From contig NZ_AP024485.1 in the NCBI RefSeq assembly GCF_020886695.1, positions 1,373,001 to 1,437,000 on the forward strand: a DNA stretch of 64,000 nucleotides, read 5' to 3'. The number at the start of each line of letters is the position of its first letter. Within the stretch, counting starts at the first letter, position 1. The notes beneath the pieces are model-generated. The model was not told the DNA's origin. It saw nothing but the letters and a program-made list of their open reading frames with translations, and did not search any database. The stretch is from Pseudodesulfovibrio sediminis. Its GTDB lineage: Bacteria > Desulfobacterota > Desulfovibrionia > Desulfovibrionales > Desulfovibrionaceae. Of the stretch, positions 39,241 through 55,131 are shown piece after piece. The position numbers and the translations under genes are program-made.

Positions 39241-41273
39241 ATCTCATCCTCTCCATGATTCTTCTGAAGGCCCAAACCACAGGCAACCGAGCAGGAAACC
39301 ATGGTCCCGCCGCCTTCGGATTCGTCAATATCCACAACCCGCAAATCGCCACCGATCATCATCGCCCGATGCGCCATGATGCTCATGCCCAACCCGCCTT
39401 TGGACCGGGCCGCCGCAGATATGCCAACACCATCATCACGAACCAAGAGAGTAGCCATACCGTCTCTAGAACAATCGAACGAGACCGTGATTCGTGTGGG
39501 GTTGGCGTGTTTAACGGCATTGGAAATCGCTTCCTGCGCAATGCGATAAAGCTGTGCCACCTGCATTTTCTGGCATATTTCGCAGAGTCTTTTATCATAA
39601 AAATCTATGGGAATACCGCTGGACCGAGAATACCGCTGAACCATGTCAGCTAATGACGGACCCGAGCCCGCAGCTTCCGACTCCAACGGCCAGATACCAC
39701 AGGATAGGTCGTATGCCTGGACCACCAATTCATCCAGGATGGCAGAAAGCTGTTCCAATTCTTCCTTTCCCCTCTCCGGGTTTTGCACTACCTGCGATAG
39801 CGATGCACATCTCAAACAAGCTCCTGTCAACTGCTGGCAAATGCCATCGTGGAGATCGATGCTGATACGACGTCGCTCTTCTTCGCTGATGTTCACGATC
39901 TCCCGTTCCAATCTGCTGCGCTCGGCAACCTCCTTTTCGAGATTGACGTTTTTGTTTTCAAGATCCTCGGAAAGGTTCTCGACAGCGGCAAAGGAATTGG
40001 AAAAACGTTGGGCCAACGCCACGGCTTGGGACAAAACAAGCGCAAATAACCCCACCGGCAAAAGACTCATCACATGGGTACCGAAGATAAGATAATATAT
40101 GTCGTGGGTTGAAGTGAGCCCGAGCAGGATTATGCCACAAAGAAGAATAAGGGAGCCGCTGTAACCTCGCCGGAAACAAACAAACAGCAGAAAGACAAAA
40201 TATGCAGTAAAAAATACAGCCGTAAGCGCAAATAATTGAAGCGCCATCTGATAAACGACACCGGGCAGAAACAGAACGGTGAAGAGAAAAAGAAGCCCTC
40301 GTATGTCAACGATATATAGAAAAACTCGCCCAAACTCTTTCGGGAATAACGACCTGTAGAATCTGTAGAGTATGGAAGTCGAAGAGGCGTAGCAGATAAT
40401 TGCTATCTTGCTCACGACGATGAATTTAAGCTCTGGGAAATAGGCCCTTATCAACCAGTCCGACGCATCATTGGAGGCAACAAGCATCGTCAAAACGATG
40501 CAATAAATACCGAAATACAGCGTGGAGATATCCTTCTTTCTCAATACGTAAAGGATGAAGTGGTACAATGCCATGATCAGCATGCAGCCCGCAAACAATA
40601 ACCCCCAGCTCCGTGCATTCTCATGGGCCTGTTCCAGCACCCCCGGCTCAGCCAATACGATTGGGTTTTGCACCCCACCGCCGGGAAAGAAGTGGTTGGA
40701 TATCTGCATTACCAGATCAACCGGCGTTCCATCGTTTGTGATCTTCGCCAGGACAAGCGACCGGTCCGGGACCTCCACCTCATCACTCCGTCCCACCACG
40801 CCGCTCGCAGCAAGCAGGGTCCCATTGGCCCAAATACGGTAAGCGGACCGGATCGAGAGCAGTCGCACTGTCAAATTATGAAGATCAGGGGGCAGCAGAA
40901 CACGCAAGCGGAATGTTGCCTGCCCAGTGCCAGGCAAAGGCTGCCCATTCAAATCATACTTTTTCCAGTAACCGGGAAAAGTCAGATAACCGCTCTTTGC
41001 CGGTGCATTGCCGCCAATCGCAAAGTCCTTAGGAGTCAAAAGCTGATCCCAATAAAATTCCCACTCCCCATCAAAAGCGGCCAGGCCGTCCCGGGTCGGG
41101 TCCCAATCGGAAAGATCAAGCACGCCACGCTCGGCAACTGGCATGGCCTTTTCATTTTCGCGAGCTCCGACAAGACAGACAAAGGCCACCATGATAAGCA
41201 AAAGGAATCGAATGTTCTTCACAAAAAATAGCCCTTCATAGAACTGTTCGATCAGATGGAAAACAACAAACAC
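39237..41273 (-). CDS. 7TMR-DISM sensor histidine kinase
   Basis: About 678 residues: an N-terminal signal/anchor, a periplasmic 7TMR-DISM extracellular domain (about 45-215, DGEWEFYWDQLLTP, FPGYWKKYDLNGQPL), and seven membrane helices (about 225-420). A coiled coil precedes a HisKA_3 kinase domain (ISEEERRRISIDLHDGICQQ) and a HATPase (AISNAVKHANPTRI, DDGVGI). The extracellular jelly-roll domain typically binds carbohydrates or related ligands. It is paired with the LuxR-type regulator. The start could also be the GTG 18 codons later (VKNIRFLLLIMVAF). Confidence 0.85.
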   Translation of the reverse strand: MFVVFHLIEQFYEGLFFVKNIRFLLLIMVAFVCLVGARENEKAMPVAERGVLDLSDWDPTRDGLAAFDGEWEFYWDQLLTPKDFAIGGNAPAKSGYLTFPGYWKKYDLNGQPLPGTGQATFRLRVLLPPDLHNLTVRLLSIRSAYRIWANGTLLAASGVVGRSDEVEVPDRSLVLAKITNDGTPVDLVMQISNHFFPGGGVQNPIVLAEPGVLEQAHENARSWGLLFAGCMLIMALYHFILYVLRKKDISTLYFGIYCIVLTMLVASNDASDWLIRAYFPELKFIVVSKIAIICYASSTSILYRFYRSLFPKEFGRVFLYIVDIRGLLFLFTVLFLPGVVYQMALQLFALTAVFFTAYFVFLLFVCFRRGYSGSLILLCGIILLGLTSTHDIYYLIFGTHVMSLLPVGLFALVLSQAVALAQRFSNSFAAVENLSEDLENKNVNLEKEVAERSRLEREIVNISEEERRRISIDLHDGICQQLTGACLRCASLSQVVQNPERGKEELEQLSAILDELVVQAYDLSCGIWPLESEAAGSGPSLADMVQRYSRSSGIPIDFYDKRLCEICQKMQVAQLYRIAQEAISNAVKHANPTRITVSFDCSRDGMATLLVRDDGVGISAAARSKGGLGMSIMAHRAMMIGGDLRVVDIDESEGGGTMVSCSVACGLGLQKNHGEDEI

Positions 41274-41388: not shown

Positions 41389-41506
41389 TCATTTGTATAT
41401 TCTTTTGTATATTCCACAAAAAAAGGCTTAGAAGTGAAATCTTCTAAGCCTTTGATTTCATTGGTGTAGTTGAATGAAATCGAACCCGCAACCTCTTGAA
41501 TGCCAT
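41389..41506. repeat. Direct repeat, site A (tmRNA-like attachment site with its terminator)
   Basis: These 118 bases are a diverged copy of 54853-54970. They contain TCATTTGTATATTCTTTTGT, the hairpin 41422-41453 and the core CGAACCCGCAACCTCTTGAA (from 41481). On the minus strand the core reads as the T-loop end of a tRNA/tmRNA gene followed by a terminator. See the copies at 42755 and 54853/54929. Confidence 0.65.
41418..41453 (-). terminator. Intrinsic terminator inside site A
   Basis: AAAGGCTTAGAAG and CTTCTAAGCCTTT (41422-41453) with a seven-base A-run on the left, so it stops minus-strand RNA. It is also the nearest terminator for the DUF3800 gene ending at 41665. Confidence 0.7.
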
Positions 41507-41664
41507 ACAGGAAGGCACGCGTGTAACATTTGAAATGCTTTGACTTTTAATTTTGAAGTCAACAGAAAACCAGTGATATTGGAGGCGTGTTGAAGGCGTT
41601 TGGTTGACCGGATGGTTGACCAAAATTGGGCCTGCTTACAGCCAAAAGTTGAACATTTAATGAC

Positions 41665-42480: not shown

Positions 42481-42754
42481 CATGACCTTCTCGGTAATAA
42501 ACAACTTAAAGTAGACAACCCTATAACACCAACACAGGGAACGTTCAACCTACGTTTGACCAATGCTAGCAACTAAAAACAAGAAAAGATTAAACTTAAC
42601 CCCTCCCCCGCCTCAAACATCCTCCAACACAGTTCATACACAACTTTAATCAGCTATATTAAACATTTTGGTCATCAAATGGTCACCACCAAAAGAAAAA
42701 GGACCGCATAGCCTATCAAGCTAACCGATCATTTTTCTTCGGAAATTTAAGTGA

Positions 42755-42957
42755 TGGAGCTGGAGGGAATCAAACCCACGACCTCTTGAATGCCATTCTT
42801 GAGGGCATTCAACCAACACCTCAATATAACACTTTAAATAAACGGGACTTAATCATCGCCAAGCCTATTCGAAACACGCTGTAGCATGATGTGCGGAAGG
42901 CGCGGAATGTCGTCGTTTTTGCATGGCGTAGTGGGAAAAGCGGACACATAGCGGACA
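42755..42957. repeat. Direct repeat, site B (203 bp, matches site C)
   Basis: These 203 bases match 54929-55131 at the same length with about seven differences by eye. The left end reads, on the minus strand, as the tmRNA-like 3-prime end ...GGGTTTGATTCCC TCCAGCTCCA; the rest is element DNA shared by both copies. It is the left boundary of the ferrosome-bearing segment. The surrounding 42481-43080 has no gene. Confidence 0.75.
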
Positions 42958-42991
42958 TCGACTTGAATTTCGAGCCTAACTCTTATTGTGT

Positions 42992-43006
42992 TGATAATAA
43001 TTCGCG
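42992..43006. promoter_or_regulatory. Fur-box-like site before the plus-strand GRIR protein
   Basis: TGATAATAATTCGCG matches the left half and centre of the consensus TGANAATNATTNTCA (12 of 15 if N is free). It lies 74 bases before the ATG at 43081. Weaker than the other two sites in the island. Confidence 0.45.
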
Positions 43007-43080
43007 ACAGTTGACAGTTCCTCACAGAATCATGCAATACTTGGCTATAACACCATCTTCACCAAGCAAGGAGAGGACTT

Positions 43081-43509
43081 ATGAACGCAGCAACACAGGG
43101 ACGTATTCGGTTTAGGAATGAGGCTCTCAAGGTCACCGAGTTCGGCTTTACCTTACGGGATGCCCTGCTTGAGGTTAAGGGAGTTGTCCAGGTCCAGGTC
43201 AATAAACGGATCGGGTCCATTCTTATTCTGTTCGATAATACGAAAATTTCCGCCGAAAAAGTGTTGAGTAAAATCGCCGACGCACTTGGCGTTGATCTGA
43301 CCAAAGTGAAAAGCGGCATGAATGATGTCCACAAGGCGCTAACGGGCATGAAAGGTCGCCGCTATGTCAAGCGCGGCATGCTTGCGTCCATGGCTACTTT
43401 GCTGGGCATAGTGTACTTCTCGGAGAAGTGGCATGTCGCGGCTGGTGTAGCCTTTGTCCATCTCATCGCTCTCCATCTCTACCAAAACAAAAAGACACTG
43501 ATGAGATAG
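43081..43509 (+). CDS. Ferrosome-type membrane protein with GRIRF motif and HMA-like domain
   Basis: 142 residues. The start GRIRFRNEAL (residues 7-16) carries the arginine-rich motif also seen in the ATPase and in the protein at 47787. Next is an HMA-like alpha/beta domain (about 18-80: LRDALLEVKGVVQVQVNKR and SILILFDNTK) without the metal-binding CxxC. Two membrane helices follow near the end (about 102-120 and 121-136). Proteins like this accompany P1B-6 ATPases in ferrosome clusters. It is transcribed away from the other island genes, with a Fur-box-like site upstream and AAGGAGAGG seven bases before the start. Confidence 0.7.
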   Translation: MNAATQGRIRFRNEALKVTEFGFTLRDALLEVKGVVQVQVNKRIGSILILFDNTKISAEKVLSKIADALGVDLTKVKSGMNDVHKALTGMKGRRYVKRGMLASMATLLGIVYFSEKWHVAAGVAFVHLIALHLYQNKKTLMR

Positions 43510-43878
43510 CTGACCAGTCCCTCCTCGCCGGAAACCGGGAAGACTCCTTCCATGGATTGTCTGAATGTCGTCAGCCTGCTTTATGGATGGGCGTGCCGAG
43601 CGAGGCAAAGATTAGACAAAGATTAGGTCATGACAAATGACCCAATCCGAATTCGAGCGCATTACAGACCAGCACACCGCAGAGGGAAAGCAATACCCCC
43701 CCTGCCCCGAAGCACTCGTATGAAGCTGTTGCGACGTACGCTCTTCTTCAAGCGACAGGTAGACGTCCTGACGCACTTTTTTCATTGATCCCCCTTTGAT
43801 AAAGGTTCGGCCATCAAAGGAGGTGTCCACTGGGTGGAGGGCACGTTCCAGAACGAACACTTCCAGTTACGATTCCTG
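43510..43878. other. Intergenic region of the island
   Basis: No gene supported. Frames at 43428-43640 (plus) and 43612-43860 (minus) have no ribosome site or protein features. The region separates two convergent units. Confidence 0.4.
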
Positions 43879-43916
43879 AAAAAAAAGAAAAAGCCGACCC
43901 CTTTTAGTGGTCGGCT
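43879..43916 (-). terminator. Terminator of the ferrosome-like operon
   Basis: AGCCGACC (43892-43899) and GGTCGGCT (43909-43916) form a GC-rich stem. The A-rich tract 43879-43892 becomes a long U-run in minus-strand RNA. It lies 28 bases past the stop at 43944. Confidence 0.8.
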
Positions 43917-43943
43917 CATCATGCTTCGACAGAATTGAATTGG

Positions 43944-44348
43944 TCAGGGTTCATCTTCCAGGACCTCTTCTATTTCTTCTTCCAGTTCTTGGAGCAACGC
44001 TCCTTTTTGGCCTCTCCGATTGCCCCTTTTCCTTTCTGGTTCATCTTCCAAAGCCTCCAAGACAAGCCCAGAAAAGAGATCGCTCTGCCCTTTGCCGCTG
44101 CCGCGCATACCGAGGACCGACAAGGCGGCTATACCAGCTCCACCACCGCTCCCCCCGCCAGCAAAAGTGCTGATGGCTGCCACGCCGCCAAACAACATAG
44201 ACTGCTTCACGACATCAATCACGGCCTCCTGGTGGGAGACTTCGCCGTTTTTGTATCGCTTCCACATTTTGTAACCAGATATACCGACTCCGACGAGGGC
44301 ACCCAGTCCAGCAGCGGCCCATGGATTCTTTGGTAGAAGATTCTTCAT
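43944..44348 (-). CDS. Small membrane protein of the ferrosome-like operon, acidic tail
   Basis: 134 residues. Two hydrophobic glycine-rich segments (about 9-26 AAAGLGALVGVGISGY; about 48-80 MLFGGVAAISTFAGGGSGGG) are followed by a soluble tail: basic KRKRGNRRGQK-like, then strongly acidic EELEEEIEEVLEDEP. The GxG-rich helices recall small proteins of ferrosome and magnetosome membranes, and the acidic tail could bind iron. It is the last gene of the ATPase operon, 48 bases after the ATPase stop. No named family recognised. Confidence 0.6.
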   Translation of the reverse strand: MKNLLPKNPWAAAGLGALVGVGISGYKMWKRYKNGEVSHQEAVIDVVKQSMLFGGVAAISTFAGGGSGGGAGIAALSVLGMRGSGKGQSDLFSGLVLEALEDEPERKRGNRRGQKGALLQELEEEIEEVLEDEP

Positions 44349-44396
44349 GGTTTCACCTTATCAATTCCTTGTAACATTGCAAATACCCGCCCATGA

Positions 44397-46535
44397 TTAT
44401 TGCTCCGGCAGCATGGGGCGCATGCTGTAGGCGCATGTCAGGACCGTTCCCGAATTATGCAGCAACGCCAGCACTGCTGGAGTTATGAAGCCAAAGATAC
44501 CCAAGCCTATGAACAAGGTGTTGCTGGCCACAATGAACTTGTAGTTGCGCCGGATACGCTTCATGACCAGCCCTGAGATGGACATGGAATCAATAAGGGA
44601 ATCGAGGCGTTCGCTGGTCAGCATGACGTCGCACGTCTCCTGGGCGATGTCGGCTCCATGCTTCATGGATACGCCGACGTGGGCGTGGCTGAGGGCTGCG
44701 GAATCATTGATGCCGTCGCCGACCATGGCCACGGTGTAGCCTTCGGCGCGCAGGGTATCCACCAGCTCGGTTTTGTCATTGGGAAGGACCTGAGCGTAGA
44801 ACTCCTCGATGTCAAGTTCGCTGGCAACAGTCCGCGCTGAGGCCTCTCCATCTCCTGTCAACATGATGATACGCCTCATCCCCATGTTCTCCAGTCGCCT
44901 GATAAATCGGTACGCGGAATCCCTGACGGGGTCCTCCAGGGCGATGACCCCGGCCAATTCGTTGTCCACAGCCATATACAAAGTAGAATGCCCCGTATCC
45001 GTGCAACGCTTGATCTGAGCATCGGCAACATCAAGGTCAATCCCTTCATCCTCGTGGACGAAATGCCTGCTGCCGAGGATCATTCGCTTCCCGCCAAGGG
45101 TTGTGGATATACCGTGGGCAAGAATGTACTCAATCTCGGCATGGCGTTCATCATGGATAAGCCCCTCTTCATCTGCCTTGCGAACGACTGCATCTGCAAC
45201 GGGATGGGGGAAATGCTCTTCCATGCAGGCGGCATTGCGAAGAATGAACTCGCGAGAGTAACCGTTGACCGGACAGACATCGACCACCTCCGGGATGGCA
45301 CGAGTCAGTGTGCCGGTCTTATCCAGCACAATAGCGTCGACCTTGGAAAGTTGTTCGATACACTTGCCGCCCTTGATGAGCGCACCGAAATAGGCCGACT
45401 CCAGCATGGCGGAACGAACCGCGAGCGGCGTGGACAACTTTATGGCGCAGGAATAGTCCGCCATGAGCACTGCGGCCGCCTGCATCCAGTTGCGGGTAAT
45501 GACGAAGATAACGCCGGAAAGGACGAAGGAGAAGGGAACGATCTTGTCCGCAAGCTGGATGGCCTGGCCATGAATCTCCGCCTTCATGGCTTCGGAATCG
45601 GATATTACCTGCGCGATCTTGGCGAACCGGGTCTCGTCGCCAACACCTTCGGTGAGGATGACAATCTTACCCTCTTCGACCACGGTACCGGCAAACACCT
45701 CTTTGCCGATGCCTCGTTTGACGGAAAGAGGCTCCCCTGTCATGGACGACTGGTTAACCATTGCCGTGCCATCAGCGACCACGCCGTCCACCGAAATGCG
45801 AGCGCCAGCGCGAACCACGACGAGGTCACCCACTGCAACATTCTCCTGTGGGATTTGAACCTCTTCACCCTTGCGAAGCACCCACACCGGCTTTCCATCA
45901 CCGGCAAACAGCGATGCCAAATCTTTACGGGACTTCTCGCGAGTCCAGTCTTCCAAAGTTTCGCTGATGTCCAGCAGGAGATGGATGGTGCCAGCCGTAC
46001 TGAAGTCGCGCATGGCCAGCGCCGCGCCGATGGCGGCGCCATCAAGCACTGCCACGTTGAGCTTGCGTTGGAAGAGGTTGCGAATACCCTCGAATATCAA
46101 TGGGGCGACATTGAAGGCTGTCCAGTAGGGACGCAACCTCATGGGCATCAAAAGACGCGTGGTGTAAAAGTTGAAAACCTTTTTGGCAACGATCCAGAAA
46201 GGATTCTCCAGTTCAGCAGGCTCGTATATGCCCGGCGCATGGGCTGGCAGGGTGCAGGCAAGCTCGTCACCAAGGGCAGCACTGCGGCAATCCGACAACT
46301 CCGGCAGCAAAGGGATAGCCAAGGCATTAGCCACAACCTCTTCGACGCGCTCAGTAAGCATGCGATCAGGAACAAAGCGAACAAGCGCCCTGCCGGAACG
46401 TTCGCTGTAACTGAATTCGAGGTCGACTGCGTCATCGCCAAAATCAGCCAATATCCGTTCCTGCACATGCAGGACTTCCTGTCCTGAGTCGACTTCGAAT
46501 CGAATTCTACCAGGTATGCTTCGGACAATACTCAT
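44397..46535 (-). CDS. fezB: P1B-6-type metal ATPase, ferrosome ATPase FezB
   Basis: 712 residues. It begins MSIVRSIPGRIRFEV with the arginine-rich motif known from FezB, followed by a degenerate HMA-like domain. Then come membrane helices, the actuator loop (SSMTGEP), and the metal helix DYSCAIKLSTP with S362-C363-A364 (the SCA signature of group P1B-6 instead of CPC). The phosphorylation site is D405 in LDKTGT, and MVGDGINDSAAL marks the hinge. FezB is thought to load iron into membrane-bound ferrosome vesicles. It is encoded with small membrane proteins behind a Fur box. Assignment to ferrosomes is from these family features; identity should be tested by phylogeny. Confidence 0.8.
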   Translation of the reverse strand: MSIVRSIPGRIRFEVDSGQEVLHVQERILADFGDDAVDLEFSYSERSGRALVRFVPDRMLTERVEEVVANALAIPLLPELSDCRSAALGDELACTLPAHAPGIYEPAELENPFWIVAKKVFNFYTTRLLMPMRLRPYWTAFNVAPLIFEGIRNLFQRKLNVAVLDGAAIGAALAMRDFSTAGTIHLLLDISETLEDWTREKSRKDLASLFAGDGKPVWVLRKGEEVQIPQENVAVGDLVVVRAGARISVDGVVADGTAMVNQSSMTGEPLSVKRGIGKEVFAGTVVEEGKIVILTEGVGDETRFAKIAQVISDSEAMKAEIHGQAIQLADKIVPFSFVLSGVIFVITRNWMQAAAVLMADYSCAIKLSTPLAVRSAMLESAYFGALIKGGKCIEQLSKVDAIVLDKTGTLTRAIPEVVDVCPVNGYSREFILRNAACMEEHFPHPVADAVVRKADEEGLIHDERHAEIEYILAHGISTTLGGKRMILGSRHFVHEDEGIDLDVADAQIKRCTDTGHSTLYMAVDNELAGVIALEDPVRDSAYRFIRRLENMGMRRIIMLTGDGEASARTVASELDIEEFYAQVLPNDKTELVDTLRAEGYTVAMVGDGINDSAALSHAHVGVSMKHGADIAQETCDVMLTSERLDSLIDSMSISGLVMKRIRRNYKFIVASNTLFIGLGIFGFITPAVLALLHNSGTVLTCAYSMRPMLPEQ

Positions 46536-46609
46536 GCACCAACCATGATCCCATGCTTGTGATTTCTCATTTCACCAAACGGTCCGCTGAAAGCAGACCA
46601 TCGTCGCAG

Positions 46610-47068
46610 TTAGGAGGAAGTGGAATTCTTCCCTGCTCCAGTCTCGACAACAACTTTCTTTTCTGGTGCGGCTTTCTTGGCCGCAGGCTTCTTCGTCGGC
46701 GTCTTCTTGGGTGCAGCCTTCTTGGGTGCGGCCTTTTTGGGTGCGGCCTTCTTTTTGGGTGCGGCCTTCTTTTTGGGGGCAGCCTTCTTTTTGGGGGCAG
46801 CCTTCTTTTTCGGAGCCGACTTGGCTTCCTTTGCAGCTGCTGCCGCGGCAGCGGCCTTCTCCTCGTGCATGTACTTGGCCTCGGCGAGGTAGTCCTCTAC
46901 ATCTTCCTTGATTGTCTCGACGGTGCAGAGCAGCTTTTCTGTCAGCCCGTGTCCGCCCTGAACCAGACTTTGAAGAAGATTCTCACCCTTGCCTTCCTTG
47001 ACCAATGCGGTACCTGCTGCACCCAGCGCTGCACCCGCAATAAGGTATGCCAATCTATTCACAGCCAT
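46610..47068 (-). CDS. Membrane-anchored protein with AAPKKK-repeat basic tail
   Basis: 152 residues. One N-terminal helix (about 5-22, LAYLIAGAALGAAGTALV) is followed by an amphipathic region (about 25-65), an Ala-rich stretch and a highly basic tail of AAPKKK/AAPKKA repeats (about 83-135), like histone-H1 tails or phasin PhaF-type proteins. The tail could bind DNA, polyphosphate or the anionic surface of an iron store. Lies between fezB (75 bases) and the 47081 gene (12 bases) in one operon. The repeat DNA makes copy number changes likely. Not a family I can name. Confidence 0.6.
   Translation of the reverse strand: MAVNRLAYLIAGAALGAAGTALVKEGKGENLLQSLVQGGHGLTEKLLCTVETIKEDVEDYLAEAKYMHEEKAAAAAAAAKEAKSAPKKKAAPKKKAAPKKKAAPKKKAAPKKAAPKKAAPKKTPTKKPAAKKAAPEKKVVVETGAGKNSTSS
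46701..46817. repeat. Short tandem repeats encoding AAPKKK
   Basis: Units of 15-18 bases (variants of CTTCTTTTTGGGGGCAGC) repeat about seven times inside the basic-tail gene. Some units are exact copies, others differ by one or two bases or by three-base length steps that keep the frame. Confidence 0.75.
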
Positions 47069-47080
47069 AATCCCACCCTC

Positions 47081-47272
47081 CTAAATGTCCTTGGCCGGAT
47101 CCATTTGCTCAGCCATTTCGGTTACCGTTTTCTCAAAAAAATTCTGTCCCAATTCAGCCGCATCGCCCATGAATTCCTTCAACTCATCAGGATGCTTGAC
47201 AGCCATGTACCCGACGGCTCCCGCGGCAGCACCGACAGCGATCAGCAACAGTTTTTCCGTCAATTTGTCCAT
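47081..47272 (-). CDS. Small membrane protein of the ferrosome-like operon
   Basis: 63 residues from the ATG at 47272, or 66 from 47281; AAGGAG is better spaced for the inner start. One helix (about 5-25, LLLIAVGAAAGAVGYMAVK) and an amphipathic charged C-terminal half (PDELKEFMGDAAELGQNFFE). The helix resembles that of the 46610 protein (Gly/Ala-rich with a GAAxGAxG pattern), which follows 12 bases later. Unknown family. Confidence 0.55.
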   Translation of the reverse strand: MDKLTEKLLLIAVGAAAGAVGYMAVKHPDELKEFMGDAAELGQNFFEKTVTEMAEQMDPAKDI

Positions 47273-47355
47273 ATTCCACATACTCCTTGTGGTAGTAGAG
47301 AGTTACGCACTACCACAGTATGGATTTTTTAAAAATTATAGGGAATTATTTTTTA

Positions 47356-47610
47356 TCACCCGCGAACACGGGCAGCGGAGAGACGCCGAAGGGGAGCACC
47401 AAGGGAAGCGACAAGGAACCCATGACACACTGCACGTCCAAGCCCCAAACCGAGATAACTGCAGCCCAAGACACCTGCCAGGGACAAAAGCACGCATCCA
47501 GTCTGAAGGAAGGACTTATTGGGGCCTCTGGGAGCGTGCTCCTGCTCCGGTTTGATGGGTGTTCTATGATTTATGATAGACTTTCTATTGGATGTTTTTT
47601 CCGAAGGCAT
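47356..47610 (-). CDS. Possible small membrane protein, first of the fezB operon
   Basis: 84 codons: a polar N-terminus (about 1-33), one long glycine-rich helix (about 36-72, LLSLAGVLGCSYLGLGLGRA) and a basic end. It lies between the Fur-box-like site (47700) and the 47081 gene, which begins 83 bases later. No strong ribosome site, but the helix type matches the neighbours. Tentative. Confidence 0.45.
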   Translation of the reverse strand: MPSEKTSNRKSIINHRTPIKPEQEHAPRGPNKSFLQTGCVLLSLAGVLGCSYLGLGLGRAVCHGFLVASLGAPLRRLSAARVRG

Positions 47611-47699
47611 TAAATCACCGTGTCTTGCATTTATTTACGCCTGGGGCACGCGAAATCATTTTCCGCATCGTTTTCAGCGCATGATGGAATCGACTCTAT

Positions 47700-47714
47700 T
47701 GAAAACGATTCTCA
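47700..47714. promoter_or_regulatory. Strong Fur-box-like site before the fezB operon
   Basis: TGAAAACGATTCTCA matches TGANAATNATTNTCA at all but one defined position. It lies about 90 bases upstream of the 47356-47610 gene and in the only long gap of the operon, so the ATPase and small membrane genes are probably repressed by Fur with iron. Confidence 0.65.
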
Positions 47715-47786
47715 CAGTCAACATCAAAGCACACCAAAATGGTATGTTTTTGTATCATGCTTCAAAAAATTTTGGACACAGGGGGG

Positions 47787-48095
47787 TTATACGTAAAGAA
47801 TACCGTGCAGTTCTTTAACGATTTCTGCTGCGCGGTCATCATTATCGGTAGTGACGAGCTCTTCTAAGAGAGATGGCGAAACCCGCTCGGCATCGTACTC
47901 TATGAGTAGAGTCCGGGATAAGATATTCAGCTTGGTTTCGGTGACGGCATCCGGCATCTCAGGCGGGGATTGAGCCAAAGCCAATGCTTCCGGTTTTTCC
48001 ATGATGGCAAGGGCAAACTTGATCCGAATACGTCCCGGAAGGCTATGCTTGATGGATAGATACTTTCTCAGTGATGCTATCGTCGCGAAGTCCAT
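47787..48095 (-). CDS. Ferrosome-type protein with PGRIRI motif
   Basis: 102 residues with no membrane helix. After 18 residues comes LPGRIRIKF (P20-F27), the same arginine-rich motif as in the ATPase and the 43081 protein, leading into an HMA-like domain (SRTLLIEYDAERVSPSLLEELV near 59-80). This looks like a detached N-terminal domain of a FezB/FezC-type protein. It follows the fur gene by 60 bases on the same strand. Confidence 0.65.
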   Translation of the reverse strand: MDFATIASLRKYLSIKHSLPGRIRIKFALAIMEKPEALALAQSPPEMPDAVTETKLNILSRTLLIEYDAERVSPSLLEELVTTDNDDRAAEIVKELHGILYV

Positions 48096-48155
48096 TGTGT
48101 TTCCTCTCGTTGGAATGATACATCAGGCTGTCTTCTCATGCAATCAAACGATTGG

Positions 48156-48593
48156 CTATGCCTTCCCGCTACAATCGAAACAAACACCATAAAGGTACAT
48201 GCGATGTCTTGTCAGGGTGAACCCATACTGCTCGGCAATGTCAGCCTGCCTATTCTCGATGGCACCATCGAATATTTCGATGTTTTTCTGACAACGAATG
48301 CATACGAGATGGTCATGATGATCATGTCCATAAGCGTGTTCATAGAGAGCTCCCCCCTCCCCCACGTCAATGCTGTCGGCCAGCCCGGAATCGACCAGAA
48401 GCTTGAGAGTTCTATAGACGGTTGCCTGGCCAACCTCAGGAGCCCTCTCTTTGACGCGGGCATACAATCGCTCGGCAGAGAAATGCCCTTCAGTTTCAAG
48501 GAATGTTTCGACAATAACTTTTCGCTGCGGAGTCATACACAAGTTGTTGTCTTTGAGAAACTCTATGAAAACTTGTTCTGCTGATTTCGACAT
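48156..48593 (-). CDS. Fur-family iron regulator
   Basis: 145 residues with a typical Fur fold: winged helix (TPQRKVIVETFLETEGHFSA, VGQATVYRTLKLLVDSGLA), His-rich metal site YGHDHHDHLVC, and the structural zinc cysteines CIRCQ and CFDCSG. It would repress the three island units through the Fur-box-like sites at 42992, 47700 and 51736 when iron is ample. Encoded between the 153-residue unknown protein (27 bases before) and the PGRIRI protein. Being inside the island, it moves with its targets. Confidence 0.85.
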   Translation of the reverse strand: MSKSAEQVFIEFLKDNNLCMTPQRKVIVETFLETEGHFSAERLYARVKERAPEVGQATVYRTLKLLVDSGLADSIDVGEGGALYEHAYGHDHHDHLVCIRCQKNIEIFDGAIENRQADIAEQYGFTLTRHRMYLYGVCFDCSGKA

Positions 48594-48620
48594 AACTACT
48601 ATATATTGCTTTGATGTTGA

Positions 48621-49082
48621 TTAAAACCCAACTGCGGAAAGAAAGCGGGCTGAAGCAACCCCTGCGGCTATCTTGTTCCTAGTATTTTCAGTCAGTTCCA
48701 AATGTTCGACAATCTCAACCGGCGCGCTGTCGTTGGCACAGGCCAACACCAACTCGAAATCCTGACGTAACCGGGTAAAGGCAACTTCAATATCTTTGAA
48801 ACGGCTCCCCTGCGATCTCCAGGGCAAAGTGATCTTCCCCGAGTTCATGACCTGCTTGTGCGAAGGCGTCATCAGCGAATACCAATCAAGCGCCTCCCCA
48901 GCCCTTTCATCTTCATCGGGATAACAAAAGGAGCGCCATGAGGACGGCGGTTTCGGCAAGGCATTATCGATGACCACCTGCGGCACAGCGAGATCGATCT
49001 CAAACGGTTCAAGCTCGATTTCATACGTCAAAACCGGGCGGTGATTGCCGCGCTTCTTGTGAATTGACCACTGTATATTCAT
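48621..49082 (-). CDS. Unknown protein of the MoxR/VWA unit
   Basis: 153 residues, soluble, mixed alpha/beta, no recognised domain. Landmarks are HKKRGNHRPVLTYEIELEPFEID at 7-29 and WRSFCYPDEDERAGEALDWY near 50-69. ATG at 49082 has AGGAG seven bases upstream; a 12-codon longer version overlaps the VWA gene. It begins 10 bases after the VWA gene and ends 27 bases before fur, so it belongs to the same transcript. Confidence 0.6.
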   Translation of the reverse strand: MNIQWSIHKKRGNHRPVLTYEIELEPFEIDLAVPQVVIDNALPKPPSSWRSFCYPDEDERAGEALDWYSLMTPSHKQVMNSGKITLPWRSQGSRFKDIEVAFTRLRQDFELVLACANDSAPVEIVEHLELTENTRNKIAAGVASARFLSAVGF

Positions 49083-49092
49083 TACATCGCTC

Positions 49093-50406
49093 CTATTGTA
49101 CTTCGAGCACATCCCCAAAAGGCGGCACTTTCCGGCCGCCCCCGATCTGTGCCCATAACACCGGATATTCCGGCTCTTTCTCGGGATAATGGATGCACTC
49201 CATATCCGTTAGGTAGACCAGGCAGACCGGCGTGATGTTTTCCCGCTCCACCCATGAAAAAACAGGGCGGTAATCGGTTCCGCCGCCGCCTTCTGGCCGA
49301 ATCTCAAGCGGCAAGTCGTTACGGTCGAAAGAGTCGAAGCCGCTGACCTGACTGTCGCAGTATACAACGTGGATGGTCGTATCAAACGACTCCAGAATGC
49401 CGGACAACTCCGCACCGAACTGGTTCATCTCCGCCTCACTGATGCTGCCGGAGGTGTCGAGGGCTATAACAACTTCCGGCAGCTTCTGGTGTGACAAGGA
49501 CGGCAACACGACGTCCATGTGAAGAAATCGTTTGTTGGGAGGGGTCCAACTATAGTCGTCACGAGCCCTATCACAAATAAAACGGGCCAGATACTCTTGC
49601 CAGTCGATCTTGGGATACAGAACTTCGCCAATCAGCCGTTCCAATCCGCCGGGCAAATCGCCCATGTCGCGGGCCTGCTGCGCTGCCTGGGCCAGTGCCA
49701 GCGCCCATTCCTCGTCATTCCCGGACTCCTCCGCACCAGCTCCCTGCTCGCTTTGGCCGGAGTCACGGACTTCACCGCTCCCGCCAGGGTCGCCGAACTG
49801 CTCGCTGCCTTCTTGCCCTTCTTGCTCGCCGGTGTGGGTGTCGTTGATTTCACCATCGCCGCCAGACTCACCACCTGCCGACTGCTCGCCATCGCACGAA
49901 TCTTCGCCGTCCCTGGCCTCACCGGGCAAACCGTCCCACTCTGTATCGCCATCAGACTCACCCTGCTCATCAGAAAAAGAAGGACGATCTTCATCGTCAT
50001 GCTCTTCCTTGATTCTGAAATATATTTCATCGGCAGTGAGGGCATGGTACTTCGGATTGTCAAAATACTTTGGCGGCAGTTCTATTCCTGCCTTGAGCAG
50101 AATCCAGTTAATGGCATGATCGCAGGCGACATTCCACAATTGCGGATCGCGTCCCTTACGGCGGGTGTGATGCTGACAGGCCGGGTGCATCACGGTATGA
50201 GCCATGAGCCCCCGAACCTGCACATCGGTCAATCCATTCACATAGCCGGGATTGTAGGCAAGCCGCCTGCCGTCGGTCCACGCAGTGGCGCAACAGGTGT
50301 CTTCGGTCGGCTCCATGCGCAGGCACAGCGAACCGAAGAACGGATGTTCAAGAAGTAGGCTTGTCCGTGCCTTGATTATTTTCTGCTTTGCAGCGTCCAT
50401 GAGCAT
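49093..50406 (-). CDS. VWA-like protein with DUF2201 metallopeptidase-like domain
   Basis: 437 residues: an N-terminal DUF2201-type domain (about 15-125), a long acidic, glycine-rich linker (about 130-225) and a C-terminal VWA-like domain (about 300-437, VVIALDTSGSISEAE with the DxSxS metal site). The first domain usually shows an HExxH zinc motif. Here it reads H70-T-V-M-H74, so the catalytic Glu is absent and protease activity is doubtful. Such proteins work as partners of MoxR AAA+ ATPases, which is the gene directly upstream (TAATG overlap). Role in the island may be to assemble or remodel the metal-storage complex; inference. Confidence 0.8.
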   Translation of the reverse strand: MLMDAAKQKIIKARTSLLLEHPFFGSLCLRMEPTEDTCCATAWTDGRRLAYNPGYVNGLTDVQVRGLMAHTVMHPACQHHTRRKGRDPQLWNVACDHAINWILLKAGIELPPKYFDNPKYHALTADEIYFRIKEEHDDEDRPSFSDEQGESDGDTEWDGLPGEARDGEDSCDGEQSAGGESGGDGEINDTHTGEQEGQEGSEQFGDPGGSGEVRDSGQSEQGAGAEESGNDEEWALALAQAAQQARDMGDLPGGLERLIGEVLYPKIDWQEYLARFICDRARDDYSWTPPNKRFLHMDVVLPSLSHQKLPEVVIALDTSGSISEAEMNQFGAELSGILESFDTTIHVVYCDSQVSGFDSFDRNDLPLEIRPEGGGGTDYRPVFSWVERENITPVCLVYLTDMECIHYPEKEPEYPVLWAQIGGGRKVPPFGDVLEVQ

Positions 50407-51386
50407 TATAGCAAGACAGTGGAATTGGCCGTCGCCCAATGCGAAAAGGCTGGGGATTCCACTACGCCTCGGTGGTTTTTCACGGCATCTCTGACAAGGA
50501 GGACGCCGAACTCAGAGGGCAGTCGGGATGCGTACGTGACGATACTATCCGCAGTCTCCTCCCCGGCCATTTTCGCCAGGGCCTCGCACAAAGCGTACAA
50601 GGTCGCGGGTTCCTCGGGTACATTTGCGGTACTGGGATGGTTGATGACAGCATCCGGATCGGGCAATTGCTTGAACATCCGAGAAAACCCGGCGAACTCA
50701 GCTGCCGCGCCAGGACCAACTGTCCCTTTTAGCAGACTCAGTTCAAGTTCTTGGTCAGTTTCCATAGCGACTATACCGGCTGCGAACTCCCATGATCTGG
50801 GCGAAGGGAACGCTTTCTCATTTTTCTTGGGGTCAAAATTGTGCAAAAGATTAGGTCTGAAACGTATGAATGCCCTGACTTCCTCATGCAGATCTTTCTC
50901 TTCTGCCCAGGTCAGCCACGACTCGACATCAACGGCAAAATCGAGATGCACGAAACGGTTGGCAAGGGCGGAAGGCATGCGATGTGTCACGGCACGATCG
51001 CTTTCACGGTTGCCTGCGGCGATGACGGTCCACCCTTTCGGCAAAGTGTACTCTCCGACCTTTCGGTCAAGGACGAGCTGATAGCAAGCAGCTTGCACCA
51101 GCGGTGGGGCAGCGTTGAGTTCATCGAGGAAAAGAACTCCCTCTCCTTCAGTAGGTAGAAAAGAAGGAGGAGCCCAATGCGCCACGCCTTCCTTGACTGA
51201 GGGCAAGCCTCGAAGATCCACCGGATCAAGCAATACGGCGCGAACATCGGTTAATTCGACACCAAGATCATGAGCGACCTGTGCTACGACCTGGCTCTTC
51301 CCGACTCCGGGAGGCCCCCATATGAAGACGGGCTGCTTAAGCGGAATAAGAGTTTTCAAGGACAGTTTGATTTGATCAGGTTTCAT
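50406..51386 (-). CDS. MoxR-family AAA+ ATPase
   Basis: 326 residues with Walker A GPPGVGKS (24-31), Walker B GVLFLDELN near 93-101, sensor-1 Asn in TVIAAGNRE and an Arg-rich C-terminal lid. MoxR ATPases act as chaperones that activate or insert metal cofactors together with VWA proteins. Its partner is the next gene (one-base overlap). A Fur-box-like site at 51736 lies 350 bases upstream, possibly with a short leader gene between. Confidence 0.85.
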   Translation of the reverse strand: MKPDQIKLSLKTLIPLKQPVFIWGPPGVGKSQVVAQVAHDLGVELTDVRAVLLDPVDLRGLPSVKEGVAHWAPPSFLPTEGEGVLFLDELNAAPPLVQAACYQLVLDRKVGEYTLPKGWTVIAAGNRESDRAVTHRMPSALANRFVHLDFAVDVESWLTWAEEKDLHEEVRAFIRFRPNLLHNFDPKKNEKAFPSPRSWEFAAGIVAMETDQELELSLLKGTVGPGAAAEFAGFSRMFKQLPDPDAVINHPSTANVPEEPATLYALCEALAKMAGEETADSIVTYASRLPSEFGVLLVRDAVKNHRGVVESPAFSHWATANSTVLL

Positions 51387-51735
51387 TGTTCCTCACATGA
51401 AATGCACAACCCACGTGCATCCTGTCGGTCTGTTTGTTGTTAGGAGTAAATTAAGTACCCTTTCAAATGCCGCCATTGAGCAAACGGATATCACTGCAAC
51501 GGTAGCCATCTTTTTCACTTCTCGTTGAACTGTGCGACGAGATTTGGCCGCTGTCGTACCTGTAAGAATAATGACGCAACCGACATCCTTGATCGAGTCG
51601 ACAAAAGACACTTCTTCTCCAGAGAACAATTTAAGCAGCACACCTTCGCGTTTTGCTTCATTGACATATAACTTCTTGTTCTAACGACTTTCCCGACAAG
51701 AGCTGCGCACATGGGCCCCCCTCTTTTGTTGATAT
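51387..51735 (-). other. Leader region of the MoxR operon with unassigned small frames
   Basis: Two overlapping minus-strand frames exist: 51515-51712 (ATG with GAGGGGGG upstream, Cys-rich) and 51393-51641 (begins at a GTG; GEEVSFVDSIKDVGCVIILT). Joined by a frameshift they would give one protein of about 105 residues that starts at the good ribosome site, so this may be a broken or misread small gene. No family recognised. Confidence 0.3.
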
Positions 51736-51750
51736 TGAAAGTCGTTTTCA
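51736..51750. promoter_or_regulatory. Fur-box-like site before the MoxR/VWA/fur unit
   Basis: TGAAAGTCGTTTTCA is a near-perfect inverted repeat and differs from TGANAATNATTNTCA at two defined positions. It precedes the minus-strand unit MoxR-VWA-48621-fur-47787, allowing autoregulation by the island Fur. Confidence 0.55.
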
Positions 51751-51894
51751 TCAACTACATGTCTCTTATTTGCCTGTCAACAACAAATTGCAGCCTGTAT
51801 TAGTATGAATAAAAGAGTTGACTAACCCCCACTCCATTTACAGGAAACTCTCTTGATACCGACAGCTTATGCCAAATGTTATGGAGAATTTTTT

Positions 51895-52190
51895 ATGGAA
51901 TATAGCCAAGAGATAAAAGCCTTAGCGAAACAGTTTCAGTCAATTCTGAACGAACTCTTGGACTTAAAAAGCAAATTGCCAATCAATCTACAAAAATTGA
52001 ATCGGCAATTGACCTAGCTAAAAAGAAAACCTCTGATTACGAAGCTGAAGCACAAACGTCTGCTCATGATGCGGCTTCACTTCAAGGGAAAGTACAAGCA
52101 GCAAACCAGCGAGTTCTCAAACTTGAATCCGATGCCAAAGGGCTACTCAAAGCGGTTGAGTCTACAAGGGACTCGGCTTCAACAGCCTGA
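51895..52190 (+). pseudogene. Frameshifted small coiled-coil protein gene
   Basis: An ATG at 51895 (GGAGA upstream) opens 40 codons (EYSQEIKALAKQFQSILNEL...) that end early. A frame one base different continues as LGLKKQIANQSTKIESAIDL and AHDAASLQGKVQAANQRVLK to a stop at 52188-52190. Together this would be a coiled-coil protein of about 98 residues. The shift occurs at an A-rich run near 51963-51975. AT-rich, at the edge of the decayed IS3. Confidence 0.45.
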
Positions 52191-52196
52191 CCTGCC

Positions 52197-52860
52197 CTAC
52201 TCGTTTGTACCACCTGTAATGTTAGTGCTCTTCCCTTGGTGTTTGGAGGGCTGGCTCCACTCTCCCCCCGGGGGGAAAGTGACCTCTGGCGCAGGTGGCT
52301 TGTATTCCAGAGCACTATGAGGCCTGAAGGTATTATAGAGCTTCCCTGAGCGTTGTGAAAATTTCTCCATTAAGCAGCTCGTCACGCAATTTACCATTGA
52401 AACTTTCGTTGTACCCGTTCTCCCATGGACTTACAGGTTCGATAAACAAAGTCTTTACTCCAACGCGCCCCAGCCATTTCCTCACGGCCTTAGCCGTGAA
52501 CTCCGGCCATTGTCTGACCGGATGTGATCCGGTGCTCCTCGCTCAACGAACTGTCTGCTCAAGCGGTAAAGCACATCTTCCGACTTGAGTCTTCTGGCTA
52601 CCGGGATTGCAAGGCATTCACGAGTGAATTCATCAATCACCGTCAACATGCGAAAAGCTTTGCCATCATGAGTTCTTCCCATGACGAAGTCATAGGCCCA
52701 AACATGATTCGGCCAGCATGGACGGAGGCGAATGGAGGAGCCGTCTGCAAGCCATAGCCGTTTACGTTTCGGTTGCTTTTGCGGGACTTGCAGCCCCTCA
52801 CGACGCCAAATGCGCTCCAGCCTTGTGTGGCGGGCTTTCCGCCACTGGCAGGTCATCTTC
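52197..52860 (-). mobile_element. Decayed IS3-family transposase (orfB remnant)
   Basis: The minus strand encodes RLERIWRREGLQVPQKQPKR, NHVWAYDFVMGRTHDGKAF, MLTVIDEFTRECLA and DHIRSDNG. After a frameshift it continues with EFTAKAVRKWLGRVGVKTLF, SPWENGYNESFNGKLRDELL and, after a further shift, FRPHSALEYKPPAPEV. These are DDE-domain motifs of the same IS3 subgroup as the relic at 34741. The N-terminal part and orfA are missing, so it is dead. Confidence 0.75.
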
Positions 52861-52932
52861 TGGCTAACAGAAGAAGTCCGACCTGCTTTGCTCTGGGGCA
52901 CTGCCCCGAACTTATAACGGAAGGAGCATTCC

Positions 52933-53121
52933 ATGCGAAAATCCAACAGCCTCAACTATGGTGTGAACCGGGCAACCTTGTCCGGGAACAAACCAAAACA
53001 GTACCGAATCAGCCAAAACGCCCGACACTTCGCCAAGGTCTTGCGCCAGACAGGAATGGGTGCCCGCAAGTGGACCAGGGTAACTAAAAAACATTTTCAA
53101 CGCCCATCAAAAATAATATAG
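52933..53121 (+). CDS. Possible integrase N-terminal fragment
   Basis: 62 codons with a very good ribosome site (GGAAGGAG, seven bases before ATG). The sequence SLNYGVNRATLSGNKPKQYR and NARHFAKVLRQTGMGARKW resembles the N-terminal SAM-like arm-binding segment of some tyrosine recombinases, but it stops before any catalytic domain. It lies between the IS3 relic and the right end of the island, where an integrase would be expected. Tentative. Confidence 0.4.
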   Translation: MRKSNSLNYGVNRATLSGNKPKQYRISQNARHFAKVLRQTGMGARKWTRVTKKHFQRPSKII

Positions 53122-53132
53122 CTCCACTCACT

Positions 53133-53663
53133 TTAGAAGCTGCTCACACCATCTATCAACCGCAACATGTCCCTCTCAGCAAAGACACAGCCATCAATAT
53201 CTTTGCCGCTATAGGGTGTCTCGTTGAGTAAACCCGTAATCCATTGAATCTCACTCCGAGTCCTCGGCAAATGGCCAAGACGATTTTTCAGCATATACTC
53301 CATGTTGAACTTCATGTCGTTCATCGTTCCAAGCACACTTCGGCTATGGGTCTTGCCATAAGAGAACGGGGCAAGCAGCAACTTGGCTTGAGCTATTTGT
53401 GCTGATGTTGCTCCAATGCCCAGAAGAGCTATCTCGAAGTGCTTGATGAACACCTTGTCAAAGTTCATGAAGTCCTTCTTGACCAATCCGGGCATGAATA
53501 CGGCAAACCGAGTTTCATCATTAACCAATAGAACGGATTTTCTACGGAAGAATCTGAAGATGTTGCCATGCCAACCTTGTAGCCCACGTTGACTGGAAGA
53601 CTCTAGGATTTGTTCTGGTTTGATCTCACTTAATAGCTTCTGGGTGCATCCGATGTAAGGCAT
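53133..53663 (-). CDS. DUF6933-like hypothetical protein
   Basis: 176 residues starting MPYIGCTQKLLSEI. The pattern WHGNIFRFFRRKSVLLVNDETRFAVFMPG at about 31-59 is typical of a family of element-borne proteins (DUF6933 as I recall) of unknown function. No signal peptide or membrane helix. AT-rich, cargo of the right end of the island. Confidence 0.6.
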   Translation of the reverse strand: MPYIGCTQKLLSEIKPEQILESSSQRGLQGWHGNIFRFFRRKSVLLVNDETRFAVFMPGLVKKDFMNFDKVFIKHFEIALLGIGATSAQIAQAKLLLAPFSYGKTHSRSVLGTMNDMKFNMEYMLKNRLGHLPRTRSEIQWITGLLNETPYSGKDIDGCVFAERDMLRLIDGVSSF

Positions 53664-53829
53664 CTATGATCTCATCTCGTTGTGTGATGAAGGATTCCTC
53701 ACTCAGATAGCCACAATCGGACTTAGGATCAACTTAGATGGATATTCTAGGATGATGTGGTGGGTTATTCATTAAATTGGTATGGTGTACCCCTAATTCC
53801 AATACCCATATATACTCCGTGGCCAATTA

Positions 53830-54627
53830 TTAGTCATCTTCTGGTTCATTTTGAAGGTCGTTCAAGTTATCAATAAGAGTCTGGTATTCCTGCCTATAAT
53901 TATCAACCCTAATCTCGGCAATTGGAGGTCTGAAGATTAAGCCACGACCACTCCCAGACTTTCTTCCATCAGGCAAAGTAGTGGTCCATATTAATGGGAC
54001 AACTGAATTCAACATTTCCCTTGCTGCATCTAAGTTTTGCGGATCGTTAACACAGTACCGGAAAGAACCTAATACAATGTCCATTGCTGAGTTCGCATGA
54101 CTAGCCTCAACACAAGTAGCACTGAATAATTTGATCCTATCAAGCACTCGATTTCCATCAGGAAGTTGTAAGCCGGTACAGAACTTCTCTCCTAAATATT
54201 TCCACTGTCCCATACATGGCAGGTTATCTATGACACAAATCCCATCATCACCTACTATATTCAAATACTTGTTATACCTTCCAATTACGTAATCAGCAGC
54301 CCATTTTACATGACGGTCTTGATCCTGATTTCTAATAATCGCATGAAGTATAATATGAACGATAAACTTACATTCTAACTCGTTGCATAAAGCAATTACC
54401 TGACGCTTAGCATCCGTGCATGCTTCGATAGCAACTTGTTCTGGGCGCGCGTTTGTATCAAACTTAAGAACATCTGTAGAATTGTAACCAGCCTCTTGCC
54501 TGATATGCTTAATACCATCATCTAGATCACTGACGGCATCAACAGGCATCACTAGCCCGCCGTAAATAAAGAATTTATTCCTAGTACTTGGTCTTCTGTT
54601 CGTTTCATCTGTGAGCATAATATGCAT
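53830..54627 (-). CDS. DUF3800-like protein at the right island end
   Basis: 265 residues beginning MHIMLTDETNRR, with the Asp-Glu start of DUF3800-type proteins and a later acidic ICVIDNLPCMGQW near 130-142. The ending RGLIFRPPIAEIRVDNYRQEY is not usual for the family. AT-rich. It is positioned just left of site C, the same place relative to the element end as the DUF3800 gene at 41665. The start at 54627 is chosen over 54684 because the upstream codons add no similarity. Confidence 0.6.
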   Translation of the reverse strand: MHIMLTDETNRRPSTRNKFFIYGGLVMPVDAVSDLDDGIKHIRQEAGYNSTDVLKFDTNARPEQVAIEACTDAKRQVIALCNELECKFIVHIILHAIIRNQDQDRHVKWAADYVIGRYNKYLNIVGDDGICVIDNLPCMGQWKYLGEKFCTGLQLPDGNRVLDRIKLFSATCVEASHANSAMDIVLGSFRYCVNDPQNLDAAREMLNSVVPLIWTTTLPDGRKSGSGRGLIFRPPIAEIRVDNYRQEYQTLIDNLNDLQNEPEDD

Positions 54628-54852
54628 AACGATTCTCCAATGAATGCATGAATAGTTATACCAAGCCACATACACCGTCAACATGGTGTCTAATTCTGGC
54701 CCAATAGGTATACCCTAATGTCCTCAGGAAAATGCACGGACATTTAAGTTGACATTTCCCCCTTTCGGGCACAGGGGTGCTATCATCTTGGAATTAGGGG
54801 GACACCATACCTAATTCCCTATCCCCAAAACAAATCACCATCCACCCTGATT

Positions 54853-54970
54853 TCATTTGTATATTCTTTTGTATATTCCACGAAAAAAGGCTTAGAAGGA
54901 AAACCTTCTAAGTCTTTGATATCATTGCTGGAGCTGGAGGGATTCGAACCCACAACCTCTTGAATGCCAT
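54853..54970. repeat. Site C, left part (matches site A)
   Basis: 118 bases matching 41389-41506. The shared part covers TCATTTGTATATTCTTTTGT, the terminator hairpin and the core CGAACCCACAACCTCTTGAA (from 54945). On the minus strand it reads GGTTCGAATCCC, TCCAGCTCCA, then a terminator, as the 3-prime end of a tmRNA gene would. The T-stem has one mismatch and no CCA follows, so it is an attachment-site copy and not a functional end. Confidence 0.7.
54883..54917 (-). terminator. Intrinsic terminator inside site C
   Basis: AAAGGCTTAGAAGG and CCTTCTAAGTCTTT (54886-54917) with an A-run on the left; for minus-strand RNA it directly follows the tmRNA-like end. Confidence 0.7.
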
Positions 54971-55131
54971 TCTTGAGGGCATTCAACCAACACCTCAATA
55001 TAACACTTTAAATAAACGGGACTTATTCATCGCCAAGCCTATTCGAAACACGGTGTAGCATGATGTGCGGAAGGCGCGGAATGTCGTCGTTTTTGCATGG
55101 CGTCGTGGGAAAAGCGGACACATAACGGACA
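54929..55131. repeat. Site C, right part (203 bp, matches site B)
   Basis: 203 bases matching 42755-42957 with about seven differences by eye. Together with site B it brackets 12.2 kb that hold the ferrosome-like genes. Because site C joins the left flank of site A and the right flank of site B around one core, it looks like the junction between two tandem elements. Confidence 0.75.

Follow-up and report, generated by a model that had tools for sequence, protein, structure and literature searches.

Known fez systems and the Pseudodesulfovibrio sediminis locus

Ferrosomes are bacterial iron-storage organelles specified by fez genes. In C. difficile, ferrosomes are reported to require FezA and FezB, which Fur represses (PMC12574912). 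R. palustris CGA009 forms ferrosomes from six fez genes, RPA2333-2338, according to an excerpt of another (PMC12016538), so clusters of more than three fez genes are already known. Heme binding was reported for the FezC of another bacterium, and FezC was related to DUF4405, in a section of a third (PMC11334425). Here we describe a fez cluster in a 64,000-nucleotide stretch of Pseudodesulfovibrio sediminis, referred to as the window (G000:C1:1373001-1437000; its genome, G000, is 3.76 Mb in a single contig). Judged by homology, the cluster is a complete-looking fez set. It is likely that a seven-gene fez module of a Desulfovibrio-family type lies here in a 12.2-kb unit lacking a Phage_integrase gene, within a tRNA-Ala(GGC) island array, that the ferrosome works as proposed below, and that fez has been exchanged between species.

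The reference locus was that of Solidesulfovibrio (Desulfovibrio) magneticus RS-1; Solidesulfovibrio and Halodesulfovibrio share a family code with the genus of the window. Genome G143 was identified as RS-1 by 8,000 bases of an 8,867-bp contig that were 100% identical to the RS-1 plasmid NC_012795.1. Its fez-like locus (L177) has three consecutive open reading frames (ORFs) of 86, 743 and 146 amino acids (aa), all in the same direction, which were compared with 20 window proteins. The two loci share FezA, FezB and FezC homologues, the SCA motif and an N-terminal R-motif (GRMRL in RS-1 FezB, GRIRF in RS-1 FezC). Unlike RS-1, the window has four additional genes, a FezA that ends in a basic tail, a divergent fezC and an island setting. 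G025, a close relative of RS-1, gave no tblastn match (1e-5, 20 kb) to any of the four additional proteins. The FezB loci of clostridia and Lachnospiraceae resemble the window in that a small DUF6110-type ORF precedes an ATPase with the SCA motif, which in most cases also has a GRxR motif, but they form a distinct FezB subclade. The R. palustris cluster, on the excerpt cited, is alike in gene number, as it too exceeds three fez genes.

The fez genes and proteins

The genes of the module are as follows (window coordinates; short names in quotation marks).

43081..43509, plus strand: fezC homologue; HMA_2 E = 2.8e-11, RS-1 FezC-like ORF E = 1e-8
43944..44348, minus strand: small Gly-rich protein of the fez module ("Gly-rich"), aligned across 10 loci
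44397..46535, minus strand: fezB homologue, a P1B ATPase with SCA motif, D405 and N-terminal PGRIRF
46610..47068, minus strand: fezA homologue whose basic tail is rich in Lys, Ala and Pro; RS-1 FezA-like ORF 32% over 77 aa, E = 5e-10
47081..47281, minus strand: small FezA-like paralogue ("gly"); RS-1 FezA-like ORF E = 1e-4; position conserved
47356..47610, minus strand: small protein ("tm"), first of the tm-gly-fezA-fezB run; position conserved in five other fez-bearing genomes of the genus and several Halodesulfovibrio loci
47787..48095, minus strand: third R-motif protein ("hmaR"), PGRIRI and HMA_2 (E = 5.3e-9)

An original prediction, made by a model from the letters of this DNA, had named a ferrosome cluster of the D. 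magneticus kind. Homology agreed with it: among the 20 window proteins, the best matches of the FezA-, FezB- and FezC-like ORFs of RS-1 were the products of 46610, 44397 (E = 0, 49% identity) and 43081. Because the FezA- and FezC-like ORFs match there, the "basic-tail protein" once offered as an extra ferrosome part is FezA itself, with its Lys/Ala/Pro tail, and the 43081 protein is FezC. The ATPase motifs in the prediction were all located. The FezB homologue has 712 aa, with PGRIR at residue 8, TGEP at 266, SCA at 362, DKTGT with D405, and GDGIND at 606. The two other proteins said to carry GRIR do so, with GRIRF at residue 7 (43081-43509) and GRIRI at residue 21 (47787-48095), and Pfam placed HMA_2 in both (44 and 36.6 bits, cut-off 30 bits). 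The four small glycine-rich membrane proteins correspond to the Gly/Ala-rich ORFs 43944, 46610, 47081 and 47356, whose membrane nature was judged by eye. These features, like the direct repeat described below, are real and exceed what chance would give.

A FezB tree was built from 72 of 125 candidate ATPases; it lacks genomes G206 and G215 of the genus and most clostridial rows. The window ATPase clustered with RS-1 FezB and 15 others in a 17-row clade with a Shimodaira-Hasegawa-like approximate likelihood ratio test (SH-aLRT) value of 95, so the phylogeny suggested earlier as a check placed it within the expected group. E. coli CopA and ZntA and a tandem-ATPase group of the same family fell outside. 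Within the clade, the FezB of the window, G116, G128 and G185 grouped together (SH-aLRT 91), with G037 as sister (99). The ATPase is presumably of class P1B-6, the class named in the original prediction.

FezA showed a sub-threshold match (E = 0.012) to DUF6110, the family of the ORF preceding FezB in Blautia, and a Pfam search with the RS-1 FezA-like ORF gave no match. In FezC, R8, R10, R12, H118 and H132 were invariant in all 15 aligned sequences, RS-1 included. The AlphaFold model of FezC (predicted local distance difference test, pLDDT, 87.5) showed an HMA-fold domain whose strand 1 carries GRIRFR, and after it a two-helix hairpin bearing H118 and H132. The top match of this model in the PDB was an HMA metal-binding domain (E = 1.3e-3), with none at or below 1e-3. 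The window FezC also gave a sub-threshold match to DUF4405 (E = 0.032). Compared with G206, the ratio of nonsynonymous to synonymous substitution rates (dN/dS) was 0.06 for FezB, 0.08 for FezC and 0.11 for Gly-rich, with dS of 1.4-1.8, and these ratios indicate that the three genes are under purifying selection; dS of hmaR was saturated.

The Gly-rich protein (43944) matched the MamC profile with E = 5e-5 and 23.5 bits. MamC homology was rejected, as the score is far under the cut-off of 100, only 2 of 10 members matched, and the structure model is poor (pLDDT 55.8). It remains a lead.

The module across relatives

The genus was sampled with 36 genomes, G000 included. With presence taken as a FezB match at E <= 1e-130, fez occurs in six of them (G000, G116, G128, G185, G206 and G215). 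The order hmaR-tm-gly-FezA-FezB-Gly-rich-FezC is repeated in the five genomes other than G000, with hmaR as the first gene in each; in the window, fezC is divergent from fezA and fezB. Because the four genes besides fezA, fezB and fezC hold their order in these five genomes, the fez module is, on gene order, seven genes spanning 43081-48095. When the window from 39.0 to 57.0 kb was compared with G206 or G215, DNA similarity was limited to ~42990-48105, so the shared unit is ~5 kb.

In Halodesulfovibrio loci, parts of the module are present, and the Gly-rich gene, where found, precedes hmaR. No hmaR was found by tblastn in the loci of G021 or G044. In G116 and G128, the Gly-rich gene is separated from fezC by a cation-efflux (CDF) gene (L139:11943-13118; G128:3305922-3307079) that is absent from the window.

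A place of fez on plasmids or phages was considered and rejected. FezC had no PLSDB plasmid match at 1e-3, and 20 plasmids carry relatives of FezB (E <= 1e-100) that are 32-41% identical. ATPase matches at 1e-30 occurred in 66 phage records. Two of these, faecal contigs labelled phage (MT835525.1 and MT836292.1), hold FezB-like genes of 41-42% identity and may be bacterial DNA. In IMG/VR, three stretches matched the pattern and none was confirmed, in a scan that detects close relatives only.

Some other arrangements were seen. A protein with an HD domain (HD_5) lies beside or near fez in several genera (L156:11195, L144:5671, L145:13072, L146:13847, L147:4240; L139:1969-2658). Such a protein adjoins FezC in G025 and is also found in the Fur-Feo block of some genomes of the genus. 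Two or three P1B ATPases are clustered at each of L180 (G046), L181 (G192), L182 (G178), L183 (G048), L185 (G028) and L167 (G213). These ATPases are of the CPC type (with GRxR at the N-terminus), the SCA type and the ACA/VCS type; they group apart from FezB and may represent another metal system.

Putative control sites

Two candidate regulatory sites lie upstream of module genes.

42991..43021, plus strand: putative Fur-type operator TTGATAATAATTCGCG, then a -35-like TTGACA, upstream of fezC
47698..47721, minus strand: putative Fur box TTGACTGTGAGAATCGTTTTCAAT, sited at the tm-gly-fezA-fezB promoter

The sequence TTGATAATAATTC upstream of fezC is kept in all six fez-bearing genomes, with two differing positions in G185. 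TTGAC follows this operator in five of them, the exception being G215. A site of the type TTGAC-N(2)-TGADAAYCRTTTTCAAT lies upstream of the tm-gly-fezA-fezB run in 6/6. Both conserved sites are Fur-box-like. A Fur consensus scan of the window gave five matches with three mismatches each, against 1.4 expected, and 3 of 100 shuffles reached five. This is slightly above chance, and the weight for these putative Fur sites comes from their conservation.

The tRNA-Ala island

The fez unit occupies 42755-54928 (12.2 kb) and has attachment-site (att) remnants at both ends.

42752..42957, minus strand: att remnant at the distal end of the unit, made of a tRNA-Ala 3' fragment (~42755-42798) and a 159-bp arm
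54926..55131, minus strand: att remnant at the tRNA-proximal end of the unit
41455..41517, minus strand: an additional, incomplete tRNA-Ala 3' fragment belonging to the array, 76% identical to the repeat over 63 bp

The two remnants form a direct repeat that is 96% identical (E = 6e-94). The original prediction had seen this repeat and its bracketing of the set correctly, but gave it 203 bp where it measures 206 bp. The 3' end of tRNA-Ala(GGC) makes up its first 44-47 bp. G000 has intact tRNA-Ala(GGC) genes at 1282066-1282141 and 1507442-1507517 of the contig, both on the minus strand, and the core of the repeat was aligned with the latter. Below this second gene lie tRNA-Ala 3' fragments at 1489435, 1487151, 1484839, 1440235, 1427929 and 1415755. 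Shorter fragments are at 1483276, 1449239 and 1414478. Each of the six longer fragments precedes one of two terminator-like left ends. From this layout, the repeats are att remnants within a tandem island array of 92 kb (G000:C1:1415000-1507517). Phage_integrase matches in the array were confined to 1497726-1499183.

Repeat matches were present in 36/36 genomes of the genus, with at least 2 to 13 per genome among the matches listed, intact tRNA genes included. Rfam at gathering thresholds gave no match over the window, and the folded repeat was not stabler than its shuffles (z 1.11). The G+C content of the unit is 0.507 versus 0.543 for the window, which decides nothing.

In its layout, the unit is similar to the att-flanked, non-autonomous elements accreted at tRNA genes, presumably of the kind termed cis-mobilizable element (CIME) type. 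Shared traits are att remnants at both ends, a tandem array and the lack of a Phage_integrase match in the unit.

Just below the partial tRNA-Ala fragment, the window encodes a 7TMR-DISM histidine kinase (39237-41273). Relatives of this kinase (73-77%) also have tRNA-Ala matches nearby, at 0.5 kb in G104 and 6 kb in G164, among the matches listed.

History of the fez set

In a tree of six concatenated fez-module proteins, G000 and G206 paired with support of 100/100. RpoB placed G206 outside the other five fez-bearing genomes (100/99) and rejected the G000+G206 pair (p = 1e-6). In an RpoB tree of 30 rows, G000 fell in a 14-row group containing G215 (99). The fez set in turn rejected G000+G215 (p = 9e-4) and did not reject G116+G128+G185 (p = 0.053). 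This conflict between trees argues for fez transfer within the genus and suggests that the fez set moved horizontally between its species. As for the original idea that the set travels as a unit, it gains from the tRNA-Ala att remnants and from a fez history unlike that of RpoB. It loses on extent, as the 12-kb unit was not seen at the five other fez-bearing genomes and the piece that recurs is the 5-kb module.

Proposed working and alternative explanations

We propose that Fur would release the module from its two conserved Fur-box-like sites at iron shortage. FezA and the small Gly-rich proteins would then shape a membrane vesicle, into which FezB would pump ferrous iron. FezC may bind heme b through the two invariant histidines of its hairpin and adjust the redox state of the iron. 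The R-motif and HMA domains shared by FezB, FezC and the 47787 protein could tie these proteins together or pass iron between them. The fez unit itself may have been mobilised, or be mobilisable, in trans by a tRNA-Ala integrase. We speculate further, with somewhat less confidence than doubt, that species trade the ferrosome in the form of a compact cassette of 5 kb with its own Fur boxes, which would suit varied neighbourhoods. In the window it would stand in an integrase-less tRNA-Ala att-flanked unit, so that a single recombination event could bring in or remove the organelle.

Several observations weigh against a mobile ferrosome module. The RS-1 ORFs are presumably FezA, FezB and FezC, as we assigned them from gene order and homology. 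No Phage_integrase (tyrosine integrase) match was found in the fez unit (1415.7-1428.1 kb of the contig), a search that did not extend to serine recombinases. The stretches taken around fez in the other five genomes held no intact tRNA-Ala, and the nearest att core, among the matches listed, lay ~54 kb from fez in G185, ~80 kb in G128 and ~108 kb in G116. With neither nearby, no relative shows the fez unit moving; fez between tRNA-Ala remnants was seen in G000 alone, and the unit may be stranded. The species signal comes from a single gene, RpoB, whose 7-row tree weakly favours G000+G215 (70/74), and hidden paralogy mimicking transfer is possible. To the right of fez, near tRNA-Glu/Gln and moeA, G206 and G185 have a common flank, as expected if the position is old and losses followed.

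That flank is among the grounds for vertical inheritance with many losses, in which fez would be ancestral to the genus and islands inserted on both sides would have left the flanking tRNA-Ala repeats. The grouping of four FezB sequences of the genus with G037 as sister fits this history, and so does the fact that the unit boundaries were not seen elsewhere. We nevertheless regard it as rather unlikely, given the fez/RpoB conflict, the carriage of fez by only 6/36 genomes, and inner neighbourhoods that differ (a Feo block in G116, G128 and G185, and none near fez in G206 and G215). The FezB protein and its partners might instead export ferrous iron at the cell membrane, with no storage and no organelle. 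P1B ATPases are mostly exporters, a CDF gene stands within the fez loci of G116 and G128, and a Feo uptake block lies beside fez in 3/6 genomes. Efflux is still an unlikely function for this locus, as FezA and FezC homologues accompany the ATPase as in RS-1, FezB groups with RS-1 FezB in the tree, and the Fur-box-like control fits a response to iron shortage rather than efflux.

The original prediction had also offered the MoxR and VWA genes as new ferrosome parts. The genes for MoxR, VWA, the 48621 protein and Fur do lie directly upstream of fez in the window; in G116, G128 and G185 they are also upstream and on the strand of fez, at a distance of ~13-18 kb. A functional share in the ferrosome is very improbable, however. 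With a presence threshold of E <= 1e-20, VWA was found in 19/36 genomes, namely 4/6 with fez and 15/30 without it (Fisher p = 0.66, a small sample), and the two fez-bearing genomes that lack it, G206 and G215, have the whole module. FeoB of at least 72% identity was nearby in 7 of the 14 fez-negative VWA loci taken, out of 15. We conclude that MoxR, VWA and Fur belong to a Fur-Feo block and are probably not ferrosome parts.

Should cells with this cluster form ferrosomes, a bacterial organelle would be a trait that can be passed on, along a route that can be traced. The split of one genus into 6 genomes with and 30 without fez offers natural pairs for testing the role of ferrosomes. The comparison also parts the seven-gene fez module from the Fur-Feo-MoxR block and points to four accessory genes and two putative operators.

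Neighbouring genes and other passengers

Between the module and the tRNA-proximal att remnant, the unit contains the following.

48156..48593, minus strand: Fur-family regulator (FUR E = 2.6e-33, 115.1 bits), 70% to Fur1 of G116
48621..49118, minus strand: member of the MoxR-VWA run without a Pfam match, 63-79% to the orthologues of G116, G128 and G185
49093..50439, minus strand: DUF2201 metallopeptidase-like/VWA protein (PF13203 E = 1.2e-53)
50406..51386, minus strand: MoxR-like AAA ATPase (AAA_5 E = 2.2e-7), not specific to fez, 81-83% to G116, G128 and G185
52197..52955, minus strand: transposase (rve) gene fragments (PF00665 E = 6.8e-12; PF13683 E = 7.7e-5, below cut-off)
53133..53663, minus strand: DUF6933 protein, a passenger (PF22016 E = 3.6e-39)
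53830..54684, minus strand: ORF beside the tRNA-proximal att remnant, no Pfam match

The Fur regulator is the one named in the original prediction. The ORF at 51393 matched DUF2325 at 7.6e-5, which is below the cut-off.

The MoxR, VWA, 48621 and Fur genes share a block with Fur2 and FeoB, to which some genomes add SpoIIE-type and HD-domain proteins. A Fur1 match adjoined VWA in 9 of the 14 fez-negative loci. The Feo part separates the MoxR-VWA-Fur block from fez in G116, G128 and G185; it is missing in the window. Other FeoB_N matches occur elsewhere in G000, the best two in frames of 724 and 734 aa. Within 40 kb of fez in G206 and G215, no part of the MoxR-Feo block turned up. In the fez-negative genome G205 (L174:8874-14107), the MoxR-VWA-Fur-Feo block and an intact tRNA-Ala(GGC) are ~3 kb apart, and therefore the block too may travel to that tRNA.

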